From positions 4,342 through 14,505 of the forward strand of contig MEQN01000118.1 in the NCBI GenBank assembly GCA_001770235.1: a stretch of 10,164 nt of DNA, read 5' to 3'. Of the stretch, positions 2,017-7,300 are shown piece by piece. The position numbers and the translations under genes are program-made. This stretch comes from Betaproteobacteria bacterium RBG_16_58_11. Lineage in GTDB: Bacteria; Pseudomonadota; Gammaproteobacteria; Burkholderiales; Thiobacteraceae. Position 1 is the first letter of the stretch. Every line of letters starts with the position of its first letter. Below the pieces are notes generated by a model, which was given only the letters and a program-made list of their open reading frames with translations, did not search any database and had not been told where the DNA came from.

Positions 2017-4356
2017 TCACCTCACACTCACCAACTCGCCATAGCCGCGTACTTCAAATCGAATCTGATCGACGATCTTTCCGCTTTCATCCATCAGCGC
2101 CAGTTGATGCCGGCCCGGTGCGGGCGATAACCATGCCGTGTTGCCGCGCGACCAGCGTTCCAGCGGTTTGCCATCGAGCTGCCAGTTGTAGCTGCCCGGC
2201 GCGCCTTCCGCGCGCAGCGGTATGCCTTGATGCGCATCGGGAATCGCAGGGTCGAGTGCGATGATCGTGCCATCGGTCGGGTAGGTGATGCGCATCGCAG
2301 TCTGTGCGGGGCTGCGCCAAGCGATGATCTTGTCCGGCTCGGTGCCGGGGATAAACCAATCTTGACGCGCGATCTCGATACCTTCCTGGAAGCGCACCGG
2401 TCGCCGCACGACGCCCTTGGGCGGATGCGGCGCTTGGCTGGATTGTTCGGCATGAAGTTGATTCATGATATCGGCCCAGATCGGCGCTGCACCGGTGACG
2501 CCGGAGACATCGTGCATGGGGTTGCCGGCAAAATTGCCGACCCATACGCCGACGGTGTAGCGGTCGGAGAAACCAACGGCCCAGTTGTCGCGCATGTCTT
2601 TGCTGGTGCCGGTTTTGACCGCGCTCCAAGAGCGGGTGGCGAGCGGGTTATCGAAACCGAAGGTGACATAGCGCGCGCCGCGATCGCTCATGATGTCGGT
2701 GACGATGAAAGCCGCCGCCGGATCGATCACCGCGCGCGCAGGCTGCGTGCCACCCGGCGTCAAGCGAATGTCGCTCATGCGGCCTTGATTAGCCAAGGCG
2801 CGGTAAGCGTTAGCCAGATCGAGCAGTTTTACATCGGAAGCGCCGAGCGCTAAGGAAAAGCCATAGTGTTCGGGGTCGTCCACCAGGGTGGAAAAGCCGA
2901 GTTGCTTCATGCGTTCATGGAAGGCAGGCACGCCGGTTAAAACGATGGTGCGCACCGCCGGAATATTGAGCGAAGCGCCCAAGGCCGTGCGCACCGACAC
3001 CGGCCCCTTGTAATCGCGCTCATAGTTTTGCGGCACGTATAAGCCATTAGTGGTGGCGAGGTTGTAGGGCGTGTCGTCGAGCAGCGTGGCGGCGGTGAGT
3101 AAACGTTTTTCCAAGGCCAATGAATAGAGCAGCGGCTTGAGCGTGGAGCCTGCCTGGCGCGGTGCAACCACGCCGTCCACTTGCGGGCTGATGGAGAAGC
3201 GCTCGCTCGCGCCGACATAGGCCAACACTTCGCCGCTGACGTTATCCAATACCACCACCGCGCCATCTTGCACGCCGGATGCAACGAGCGAGGCCAAGTG
3301 GTGATCCAGACTTTCTACGGCAAGACGTTGCGTGTGGGCGTCGAGGCTGCTCATGACATCGCGTGTTTCAGTTGTGACCAAGCGCCGCGCCAGATGCGGC
3401 GCTAAGGCGTTGACGGGCTGCGGGTTAGGTTTCGCACCCAGCGCGATTTTGGCGTGATGGGTCAGCTTGTCGCAGTCGCCTGCCGCTTGAATCGCGCGCG
3501 CAATCGCGCATGCCCGCAGCGCCACTTGCTTGATCGGCGCGCCCGGTGCGCGGATCAGCGCGGCCAACAGACTGGCCTCGGATCGATCCAAGCCGCTCGG
3601 ATGTTTGTCGAACAGCCCCCAACTAGCCGCGCCGATGCCTTGCAGCTCGCCGCGATAGGTGATTCGGTTGAGATAGGTTTCCAGAATCTGCTGCTTGCTC
3701 CATTGCTGCTCCAATGCGCGCGCCGCCTGCATCTGCGTCCACTTTTGGCCCATGCTGCGGCCACCGGGTTGGCGCGCGAGACCGGCGTCGAGCAGAGCCG
3801 CCACTTGCATCGAAATCGAACTCGCGCCGCGCTCGGAGCGCCCCAAGGCGTTATCCCAAGCGGCCCCGGCAACGCCCACCCAATCCACCCCGCTGTGCGC
3901 GAAAAAGCGCTTATCTTCCGCAGCGGTCACCGCCTCGATCAGCGCGGGCGAGATGTCGCTCAAAGGCACCCAAGGCAGGCGGCGCGCGTTGGTATCCAGG
4001 CGCACCGTGGCGAGCGGCTCGCCGTGCCGGTCGCGCAACACGCCGTCGGAGGGACGATGCGCGGCTTGCACTTGGGAGAAGGCAGGCGGCGCGTTGGCTG
4101 CTTGCACGCTGCCGCTCAGCGTGAGCACGACGATAAAGCTAGAGATTATTTTTCGGGTAGAAAAAAAACGTAACCACGGGGAGCACGGGGGGCACGGGGA
4201 AAACCTATTGAGATTTCCGTGATAGAAATTTTCAATAAATAAGCCGTGCGAATGTACTATCTTTCCCATCGGATAAAGAGACTCATGTTCCAAAGCCTTT
4301 GGTTCTCCCCGTGAGCCCCGTGTCCCCCGTGGTTCAAAAGCAGTTTTCAGATTCAT
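2017..4356 (-). CDS. pbpC: Penicillin-binding protein 1C (bifunctional transglycosylase/transpeptidase)
   Basis: PBP1C polymerises lipid II into glycan strands and has a penicillin-binding transpeptidase domain; it works at the periplasmic face of the inner membrane. From the ATG at 4356 the protein is 779 aa. The GT51 domain shows AAEDKRFFAHSGVDW with catalytic Glu about 147, and GASSISMQVA (about 177-186). The transpeptidase shows the SxxK serine in GSTLKP (about 404), SLN (462-464) and KTGTS (581-585). A C-terminal PBP1C domain covers about 690-775. I chose 4356 because its ATGA overlaps the A2M stop, GGGAAG lies four bases upstream, and no ATG exists between the inserted element and the hydrophobic segment. 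A start at 4269 (750 aa) lies inside the element and has no RBS. Residues 8-63 come from the element; the hydrophobic segment (about IISSFIVVLTL, ending VQA) begins only near residue 68. Function is firm; the start is less so. Confidence 0.93.
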   Translation of the reverse strand: MNLKTAFEPRGTRGSRGEPKALEHESLYPMGKIVHSHGLFIENFYHGNLNRFSPCPPCSPWLRFFSTRKIISSFIVVLTLSGSVQAANAPPAFSQVQAAHRPSDGVLRDRHGEPLATVRLDTNARRLPWVPLSDISPALIEAVTAAEDKRFFAHSGVDWVGVAGAAWDNALGRSERGASSISMQVAALLDAGLARQPGGRSMGQKWTQMQAARALEQQWSKQQILETYLNRITYRGELQGIGAASWGLFDKHPSGLDRSEASLLAALIRAPGAPIKQVALRACAIARAIQAAGDCDKLTHHAKIALGAKPNPQPVNALAPHLARRLVTTETRDVMSSLDAHTQRLAVESLDHHLASLVASGVQDGAVVVLDNVSGEVLAYVGASERFSISPQVDGVVAPRQAGSTLKPLLYSLALEKRLLTAATLLDDTPYNLATTNGLYVPQNYERDYKGPVSVRTALGASLNIPAVRTIVLTGVPAFHERMKQLGFSTLVDDPEHYGFSLALGASDVKLLDLANAYRALANQGRMSDIRLTPGGTQPARAVIDPAAAFIVTDIMSDRGARYVTFGFDNPLATRSWSAVKTGTSKDMRDNWAVGFSDRYTVGVWVGNFAGNPMHDVSGVTGAAPIWADIMNQLHAEQSSQAPHPPKGVVRRPVRFQEGIEIARQDWFIPGTEPDKIIAWRSPAQTAMRITYPTDGTIIALDPAIPDAHQGIPLRAEGAPGSYNWQLDGKPLERWSRGNTAWLSPAPGRHQLALMDESGKIVDQIRFEVRGYGELVSVR
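4172..4205 (+). repeat. Left arm of the inverted-repeat element
   Basis: AACC is followed by three CACGGGG cores (the first overlapping AACC) with linker pairs AG and GG, then AAAACC. Period is nine bases. It matches the reverse complement of 4301-4334 at 29 of 34 positions. All three cores are identical between the arms; the differences are the four linker bases and one base near the inner end. Confidence 0.9.
4206..4237. repeat. Internal hairpin of the element
   Basis: TATTGAGATTTC (4206-4217) pairs with GAAATTTTCAATA (4225-4237), giving 12 pairs including one G:T and a single bulged T, around the seven-base loop CGTGATA. It abuts the left arm directly, so the folded element would be a long outer stem opening into side hairpins. 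Confidence 0.7.
4301..4334 (-). repeat. Right arm of the inverted-repeat element
   Basis: Read on the minus strand, this arm is AACC with three CACGGGG cores and linker pairs GA and CT, then AGAACC. It is the inverted partner of 4172-4205. In the pbpC reading frame it translates to an Arg-Gly rich string (PRGTRGSRGE); the left arm translates to a Pro/Cys-rich string (SPCPPCSPW). The nine-base period equals three codons. Confidence 0.9.
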
Positions 4357-7300
4357 TTCACTTCCCACGGGCGATTCGGCGTGTCCGCATACACTTGCGG
4401 CGCATACATGGCTTCCACATGCGTCGGCGGCATATTGAAGTTGCCTGGATTGTTCAAGCGCATTTCGTACTCCACCACCTGCTCGCCGCGGTACGGCAGA
4501 TACTCGTAATAGGCGCGATAGAAAGTGAAGGTGCGCTCGATAAACATCGGGGCGGCATGATCCCAGCGCGAGCGTTTCGTTACATCGTTGCCCGCTTGCG
4601 GTGCGGCTTGCTTCAAGCCGCCGCCGAGAATGGTTGCGCCGGCCGGAATCGGATCGCTCACCACCACCCAACCTTGCGGCTCATCGAGCTTGAAGCGCAG
4701 GCTCACTTTCACAATGTCGCCCGCGCGCCATTCACCTGGTGTTGCTTGCTTCACCGGGGTGAGGGTTTTTTCTATTTTGATGCCATGGTAGCTGGGCTGG
4801 TGGAGCGCGCCGTAGCCGGTGGCCAGCACTTGCACATAAGGCATACCCTTGCCTTGATGTTCCAGCCGCAGCGTGCCGCGCTCGGTGGTGAAGGGCAAAA
4901 CAAAATGCTCGCCCTGAGCAGTCGTGGCCCAATCCACTTCGCGGCTCTGGTCGCCGAAGCGCACCAGCGTCTTGCCGTTCAACTGGGATTTCGCCGCATG
5001 CAGCGCATATTTATCCAGTGCGAGCGAACCCCATACATTAGCCTGCGTGGTTTGCCAGTGGCCGTGGTGTTGACGCGCAATTGCGCCGCGCACGATACCG
5101 TCGAGGTCGGCCTGCAAGGCGGGTACATCGAGTGCGGTCAAGATCAGTTTGACCACGGTGACATCGCTCGCGTACATCAGCCACCAGCGGTCTTCATTGC
5201 CTTGGTTGCGTAATTCCAAGCCGCTGGCGGTGATGCGATAGCGCTGCTTCAATTCGGCCAGCGCCGGTTTCAGCAGGGCATCGCGGCGCGGCCATGTGCT
5301 GCGGTGCACTGTACGCACCCACACCGCCAAGGCATGCGTGGAGAGTTTGCTTAAATCGAGTTGCAGCGATTCGGCCAACTCGGGCGCGGCATAGTTGTAG
5401 CGTGACAGGGCGTCCAGCGCCATGATCTTGCGCTCGGTCAGCTCCATGCTGTCGTTGCGGTAATAGTCATAGCGTTGGGTGAGTTTGCCCGAGACGAAGT
5501 TGCTTAAACCCGCCAACATGCGTTCGCGCGCTTCACGCGGGATTTCCCAGCCGGCTTCATGCGTGGCGGACAAGACGAAAGAAGTCAGCACGTCATAGCC
5601 GTCGTTGCTGTCGGTCGGGTAGTAGGTCACCAGGCCGGACGGCGTGACATAGCGATCGATACTGTTGCGGATGATGGCCCATAGGCTTTCGTCGCGCAGC
5701 GAGACCGCTTTCGAGGTGCGCTGCTCCAGGCAGAAGAAGGGATAGCCCTGCATGTATTCGCGCACCGAGGCGGCGCTGGTGCCCAGCTTGGGCGAGATGC
5801 TGACCAGCACCTGGCCCTTGCCTGCCACCGCACCATTCGGCTTAACCAGGTCGAGCGTTTCCTGGCCTTTGAGATCGAAGGCGGTGGACTCAAAGCGCAA
5901 TTCGCTCAACGCCGGTTCGACGCGCTGCTTGATTTTGATGCTGTCGTTGCGGCCGCCGGATTCGGCAACTTCTACTTTCCATTCGAGTGAATTGATATTC
6001 AGCGGCGCGGTGATTTGCCAGCCGATGAGCTTGGCTTGTCCCGGCGTCAAGGTCACCTGCTGCTCGGTCAGCGCCTGCGCACCGGCTTGGCCGCTGGCTT
6101 TGACGCGCATCTCGCGCTCGGTCGTATTGCGCACGGTGAATTGTCCGGTGAAACGATCCGCTTCGCGCACCACCGGCGGCAAGGCCGAGAGCACCTGCAA
6201 ATCGCGGCTGGCGGTGATGGAAGCAAAACCGACGCCGAATTGATCGCTGGCGCCATCGGCTACCGCGACGATGCGAAAGCGCGTGAGCGAATCGTTCAAG
6301 GGCACGTCCACTTGTGCATCGCCCTGATCGTTGAGCCGGACCTGGGTTTGCCAGACCAGCAGCGTGTCGAACAATTCGCGTGTCGGCAGCTTGCCGCCGC
6401 CACCGCCCGGCGGCAGGGCTTTGCGCCCATAGTGGCGCTTGCCGATGACTTGCATTTGCGCGCTGGCGGATTGGAAGCCATAGCTGCGCTTGGCGAGCAT
6501 CGTGGTGAGCGCCTTCCAAGTATCGTTCGGCTGCAATTCGAGCAGCGCTTCGTCGATGGCGAACAGCGTGACATCGCGCTCCGCCGGCAGCGTGCGTTTA
6601 CCTTGGGCATCGAGCGCGCCTTCGACATGGATGGAAACACGCGCCTTTTCCCGCGTCTGATACGCCGATTTGTCGGTTTTCACGCTGACCTGCATTTCGT
6701 GTTTGCGCGCGCCGACGTTGATCTCTGCAACGCCGAGCTTGAAGGCCGGGCGCGCCAGATCGACCAAGGCGGTCGGGGAGGGTGCGGCGACCCGGCCGCG
6801 CACCAGGAACGCGGTGATATACACATTCGGCGTGTACTCGGGCTTGATCGGCAACTCGATCACCGGATTTTTGTTGGAGAGGGTCTGGGTGAAATAATCC
6901 ACCACGCCGCCGCTGCGCATCACGCCCACCAACACGGTTGCTTGCTTGAACGGCGTGCGCACTTGCAGCTTGGCAATCTCGCCCGGTTCATATTTTTTGT
7001 TCTCCGGAATCAGATCGATGCGGTCATGGTTCTCGGCCTGGAACCAGCTATCCTCGCCGCTGAAGGCCCACATGCTGCTGGTGGCTTTGGCGACGCGGCC
7101 TTGCGCGTCGCTCACGCTCGCTTGCAACACCAGTTCGCCGGTCATGGCGATTTTGAAGTTGCAGGGCAGGCGGCCTTGCTTGTCGGTTTTGCCTTTGCAC
7201 ACCTCGCCCAAATCGCTTTTGACTTCCTCGTGGTGATAGGAATAAAAGCCGCCCACGGTGCGCTTGCGGTGCGAAACCCAGCCGTGTTGCGAGGCGGTGG

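Follow-up and report, generated by a model that had tools for sequence, protein, structure and literature searches.

Positions 4,342 to 14,505 of contig MEQN01000118.1, from Betaproteobacteria bacterium RBG_16_58_11, form the stretch analyzed here (the window, 10,164 nucleotides). Its minus strand carries genes that we take, from their translations, to be recJ, a pbpC-like gene and an alpha-2-macroglobulin-like gene. At the junction of the latter two lies a compact element built from inverted arrays of the heptamer CACGGGG. A repeat search placed the arms at 4172-4205 and 4301-4334, 34 nt each, 85% complementary and 95 nt apart. The left arm proper (4175-4199, plus strand) has cores at 4175-4181, 4184-4190 and 4193-4199, and the right arm (4307-4331, opposite strand) at 4307-4313, 4316-4322 and 4325-4331, with all six cores intact. 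From outer to inner, the linkers are AG and GG on the left and, complemented, GA and CT on the right, so that all four paired linker bases are mismatched. The first-pass annotation had described the arms, cores and linkers in just this way; its further proposal of one core per roughly helical turn does not hold, as the 9-bp core period is shorter than one turn of B-DNA.

Conservation between copies extends ~16 nt past the cores on both sides (A-rich, then TTAAC), giving an element of about 4159-4347. The left outer end (4159-4174), the outermost part conserved among copies, is an A-run followed by TAAC; the right outer end (4332-4347) reads GTTCAAAAGCAGTTTT, and a similar motif adjoins many copies. 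In 76 ends of copies from the host genome, T occupies position -5 in 66 and AAC positions -3 to -1 in 70, 74 and 73, respectively; positions -16 to -10 are A-rich and the consensus is lost past about -17. The variable centre (4200-4306, 107 nt) has no gene of the GxxExxY family considered below. Folded as RNA, the window element was more stable than shuffled sequence on either strand (z -6.35 and -6.94), and the window had no Rfam match above gathering score. The pbpC-like open frame (2017-4671) continues in frame across the element, 9 bp being three codons (window 4140-4671), and the start codon of this gene may fall within the element.

Copies, empty sites and orthologous sites

The core doublet CACGGGGNNCACGGGG occurs 140 times (69 + 71) in the host genome (G000; 2.33 Mb in 160 contigs, 71% complete), the reversed pattern once (1 + 0); likewise CCRCNRRGNNCRCNRRGNNCRCNRRG occurs 64 + 67 times and its reverse not at all. 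The doublet copy number set against the reversed-pattern control shows that the element is not a product of chance. There were 98 arm-sized matches in G000, and the fetched loci yielded 63 element parses over five genomes (G000 40, G005 12, G006 6, G002 4, G003 1). Two G000 parses, with interiors of 456 and 584 nt, were neighboring arms mis-paired and were dropped. The 38 copies that remain have interiors of 16 to 158 nt; a search for copies of the same arm plan thus found far more than a single-copy sequence. Core bases departed from consensus at 19 of 1519 positions in G000, 10 of them at base 6, a count biased toward intact cores because the parser tolerated one mismatch per core. Element matches were present in seven of the 41 genomes searched, six of which, including G000, belong to one genus; congeners G001 and G004 had none at E 0.001. 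Most copies lie near gene ends according to a frame-based call of neighbors; because this call got the window's own site wrong, a preference for operon junctions is at most tentative. Two CACGGGG copies (L008, L009) hold within their centre a second repeat with GGGATGGGCGGCTTG hairpins, and further families with cores CGCGAAG, CACAGAG and CACGGAG occur on six G000 contigs (C2, C6, C7, C12, C31, C37).

Empty sites were sought with ten joined flank pairs in seven congeners. A single match spanning the join showed the element to be absent from at least one congener at 8/10 sites, as the idea of mobility in the first-pass annotation had led one to expect; by hand count from the table, such matches made up 30 of 70 site-genome combinations. 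One site gave split matches only, some split matches allow inserts of 70 to 940 nt, and the window's own joined flanks had no match in any of the seven. Precise boundaries, also expected, were not obtained. The alignments show that the element is missing, but the short intergenic stretches at empty sites are too diverged to fix its ends, and no target-site duplication stood out in a scan of 57 copies, where any excess was confined to the A-rich ends (e.g., for 4 nt, 11 vs 2.3 expected).

Where the same site is occupied in G000 and in G005 or G006, four orthologous pairs could be aligned; a fifth (L030/L189), in which the element is rearranged, was excluded. Mismatches numbered 3/146 in cores, 8/26 in linkers, 17/195 in the centre and 66/1182 in the flanks. 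Linkers had changed more than flanks, with p 9e-5 on a small number (26) of linker bases, and the flanks look largely coding, so that their rate is not a neutral one. Two of the pairs differ by exactly one 9-bp unit.

GxxExxY genes between inverted core arrays

In congener G002, inverted 9-bp arrays enclose a gene of the GxxExxY family (TIGR04256/PF13366, PD-(D/E)XK fold) at a locus designated L041. Of its six cores, three read CACGGGG and the others CACGGAG, spaced as in the window element. Four proteins tested, that of L041 included, matched TIGR04256 and PF13366 with E 3e-37 to 5e-43, far above curated cut-offs, and the D and E-x-K of the fold are invariant across 74 sequences. A sequence search gave no convincing relative of solved structure (one match, E 0.04), and fold matches to tRNA splicing endonucleases were weak. 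Most PF13366 genes of relatives are flanked by inverted short-core arrays, the core sequence being specific to each. A second PF13366 gene of G000 (L049) has CACGGAG and CACAGAG cores in its right arm and a damaged left arm.

Across the copies read, CACGGGG arms enclosed no gene of any other kind. Of six unpaired G000 arms inspected, three were N-masked, two stood alone and one belonged to an ordinary copy; in these and the 38 parsed copies, among 100 of the 140 doublets, no transposase-bearing element was found, and G000 may yet hold a rare larger copy. Nor did the CACGGGG copies read show a Y1 transposase gene within their arms, although no search was aimed at Y1 transposases. A reverse transcriptase was considered as partner and rejected, there being no PF00078 match in G003, G005 or G007, which bear elements or GxxExxY genes. 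The first-pass annotation had envisaged a transposase or another DNA-binding protein as partner and had proposed looking for a transposase gene within the same arms. No recognized transposase emerged from the arms inspected; what L041 offers instead as candidate partner is the GxxExxY protein.

The association of arms and gene extends well beyond the genus. A contig scan covered the best 80 of at least 571 GxxExxY relatives, ranked by similarity to the query and, by record title, from Bacteroidota, Verrucomicrobiota, Planctomycetota, Chloroflexota, Acidobacteriota, Pseudomonadota, Cyanobacteriota and Methanosarcinales. At 64 of 77 scorable loci the best inverted flank match scored above the 99th percentile of 529 controls drawn from the same locus, and at 25 it scored above the control maximum. 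Inverted arrays of the core CRCNRRG exceeded the 99th percentile of same-locus controls at 60/78, 9/15 and 15/28 loci in three samples; the second omits two of 17 loci, a masked one and one that is a further fragment of a gene already counted, and the third comprises 28 of 32 rows of a class sample chosen regardless of closeness to the query. At several loci that the core test missed, the core has T as its last base (CACGAAT, CGCAGAT) and is not scored as perfect; other misses are fragments. Core triplets were found in 26 of 143 class genomes. PF13366 was present in seven of 11 genomes with at least 8 triplets vs 13 of 132 others (p 9e-5, with the cut set after the table was seen).

With flanking genes named by eye and not by annotation, five GxxExxY elements with differing cores (L037, L038, L039, L048, L049) appear to share a trpD-trpC junction across five genomes, and two (L046, L047) an ispD-ispF junction across two genomes. 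Phage carriage was rejected: five relatives lie on viral contigs, four at 32-37% identity, and a single protein query found none in 50,697 phage records. Distant GxxExxY relatives from viral contigs and from a Prevotella plasmid (L324-L327, L331) sit, by eye, amid other short repeats, mostly AT-rich, which may reflect the same arrangement built from different cores.

An unrelated family, PF05635, shows a parallel arrangement. Among 43 PF05635 loci (L054-L067, L236-L264), 28 of 41 scorable ones exceeded the 99th percentile of 228 controls, with inverted short units of period ~7 by eye (e.g., GGGAGTA, GAGTTCT, AGTGTTC). They probably represent a second element class of the same plan, of which the heptamer repeats of cyanobacteria (short tandemly repeated repetitive sequences, STRR), we presume, may be remains.

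Core conservation and covariation with the protein

In 38 CACGGGG copies from four genomes, 33/152 linker bases paired, below the shuffle mean of 49.3 (P 0.0012, an optimistic value because the copies are related). Outer linkers resembled the other arm's inner linker (60/152 bases alike) more than their partner (33/152) or same-arm neighbor (17/152). The comparison was widened to 71 of 121 loci across phyla, those with at least three cores per arm. Here paired positions agreed no better than unpaired ones at core base 4 and the linker bases. Linker lengths agreed in 125/142 paired vs 77/142 unpaired comparisons, a similarity that slow indels could likewise maintain. Selection on the stem is thus unsupported by either data set; judged from these alignments, it is the cores and their spacing, not stem pairing, that the arms conserve. 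Together with a candidate partner protein encoded between like arms, this pattern supports the earlier suggestion that the cores themselves, and not the stem alone, are recognized.

Core base 5 (A or G) associates, in 46 loci, with residues 116, 21, 20, 17, 23 and 28 of the GxxExxY protein, most of them on one face of helix 1. For core base 4 the association is with residue 17 (z 5.4). A classifier was trained on 52 loci with readable arms, of 74 in the alignment, and tested on 33 others (37 readable of 52, thinned to <80% identity). Residues 20-21 predicted base 5 correctly at 27/33 held-out loci, where a majority guess gives 19; 14 of the 33 had been inspected before these columns were picked. 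At the 19 unseen loci, residues 20-21 gave 14 correct calls (p 0.018; majority 11), and Gln21 accounts for four of the five calls that they got wrong. The top three columns of the 46-locus scan gave 17 (p 6e-4). Over 85 loci, Thr20 occurs with G in 19/19 cases, Lys, Arg or Asn21 with A in 38/42 and Glu, Gly, Gln or Asp21 with G in 27/28, while His21 is divided three and three. L041 fits the code, with Ile20-Glu21 and a G at base 5, but was among the training loci; plasmid loci read later (L328-L330) agree with the code by eye.

Residue 21 differs in 31/33 closest pairs of unlike base 5 (three of these being an alignment gap) vs 18/33 same-label pairs. A similar frequency of change at columns 52 and 125 in the closest pairs means that pair counts are not specific by themselves, and the per-column association is the stronger evidence. 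Base 7 gives an example of plain clade signal, spread over the protein.

Interpretation and comparison with known systems

The window copy is most likely a gene-less derivative, like a miniature inverted-repeat transposable element (MITE), of a small element that encodes a nuclease-fold protein reading each core. The complete form would consist of arm, one GxxExxY gene of ~125 codons and arm, and would measure ~480 bp from one first core to the other, each arm being an array of at least three binding sites. The protein would read every core separately, helix 1 touching core bases 4 and 5, with linkers serving merely to fix the spacing. Bound at both ends, it would join them and cut, so that complete copies spread, and gene-less copies with matching cores would be spread in trans by the same protein. 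On the sequence evidence assembled here, we put at roughly 0.85 the probability that these are arms of GxxExxY elements with cores read by the protein. Movement of the elements by the protein itself we regard as somewhat better than an even bet; the gene-bearing copy, with cores that are CACGGGG only in part, lowers our confidence slightly. Direct binding (to DNA or RNA), cleavage and protein-caused spread are what we infer from these patterns.

Several observations weigh against this interpretation. L041 is a near relative of the window arms and not an exact match, and the corresponding G000 gene (L043), apparently in the same place, has N-masked surroundings in which arms cannot be read. Arms went undetected at 13/77 loci by inverted match and at 18/78, 6/15 and 13/28 by the core test. 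Four genomes with 8 to 64 triplets (G061, G097, G122, G167) have no PF13366 match, nor does G005, with 12 parsed copies in an assembly 87% complete. Arms of similar plan surround the unrelated PF05635 protein, and no target-site duplication stood out among the 57 copies scanned. As for the code, shared descent may explain part of the covariation, arms and protein being co-inherited. Columns 109 and 99 are also high for base 5, and column 109 reaches z 8.9 for base 2. Of the single residues, 23 does best on held-out loci (26/33), ahead of 20 (25/33) and 21 (22/33).

Transcribed arms might alternatively be RNA sites, the GxxExxY protein binding or cutting transcripts while the elements spread by another route; the protein might in this way control its own mRNA or bring about excision, as in intervening sequences. 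We consider this unlikely, even though hairpins are strongly predicted on both strands and gene-bearing copies lie between co-directional genes annotated fabD/fabG (L329) and ade/guanylyltransferase (L330). The similar arms of PF05635, a family named for 23S rRNA intervening sequences, and the weak tRNA splicing endonuclease matches point the same way. It is equally improbable that a separate, unlinked enzyme moves the elements and that GxxExxY (or PF05635) proteins only bind the arms, for instance in protection or regulation. Many-arm genomes without PF13366 and an arm plan common to two unrelated proteins would fit such an arrangement, but the copies read have no other gene between CACGGGG arms, the element-bearing G003, G005 and G007 lack a reverse transcriptase match, and the invariant D and E-x-K are as expected for a working nuclease. 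Dispersed sites useful to the host (transcript ends, chromosome organization), kept by selection after past mobility, would suit the position of copies near gene ends and the near-constancy of cores at orthologous sites; the many sites empty in congeners, and the 38 copies in G000 against none matched in G001 and G004, make this very doubtful. A mere stem or terminator arising from chance composition, despite perfectly pairing cores and a good fold energy, is refuted by copy number, the reversed-pattern control and linkers that avoid pairing.

If nuclease-driven spread is correct, the elements would be among the smallest self-moving ones. An uncharacterized protein family found across phyla gains a concrete candidate substrate here, with a proposed recognition code at residues 20-21, and short-core repeats in environmental genomes gain a possible origin. 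The chances seem to us evenly balanced that these are an undescribed mobile class of bacteria and archaea, with a ~125-residue PD-(D/E)XK nuclease as sole enzyme, a helix residue code and gene-less copies moved in trans, and with PF05635 as a second class; this estimate of novelty draws on a limited literature search. To our knowledge, a PD-(D/E)XK nuclease as sole mobility enzyme would be of a new kind, provided that the protein alone moves the element.

Bacterial MITEs are likewise short and gene-less, with terminal inverted repeats, many intergenic copies and a gene-bearing relative with like ends. The present elements share terminal inverted repeats, dispersed copies, presence/absence and a gene-bearing relative with near-identical ends; unlike MITEs, they end in short-core arrays with free linkers and have a PD-(D/E)XK-fold candidate partner, and no target duplication stood out among the copies scanned. 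In the repetitive extragenic palindromic (REP) system, short palindromes are tied to the gene for a Y1 transposase, the REP-associated tyrosine transposase (RAYT). Tn7 and Mu also carry several sites per end, inverted between ends, but the present elements have 7-bp sites spaced at 8-11 bp and encode a protein of ~125 residues with a PD-(D/E)XK and not a DDE domain. Homing endonucleases such as I-Ssp6803I are similarly small single-domain proteins of this nuclease fold on a selfish element; the present element differs in occupying dozens of differing sites, with conserved internal arms, and not one homed target. Many 23S rRNA intervening-sequence (four-helix-bundle) proteins of PF05635 also lie between inverted short-unit arrays, with unit length ~7 and other sequences. 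The closest match is the GxxExxY family itself (TIGR04256; PF13366, PDDEXK_3), to which the partner proteins belong; its entries list no function or flanking repeats, and the arms and specificity code are additions of the present analysis.
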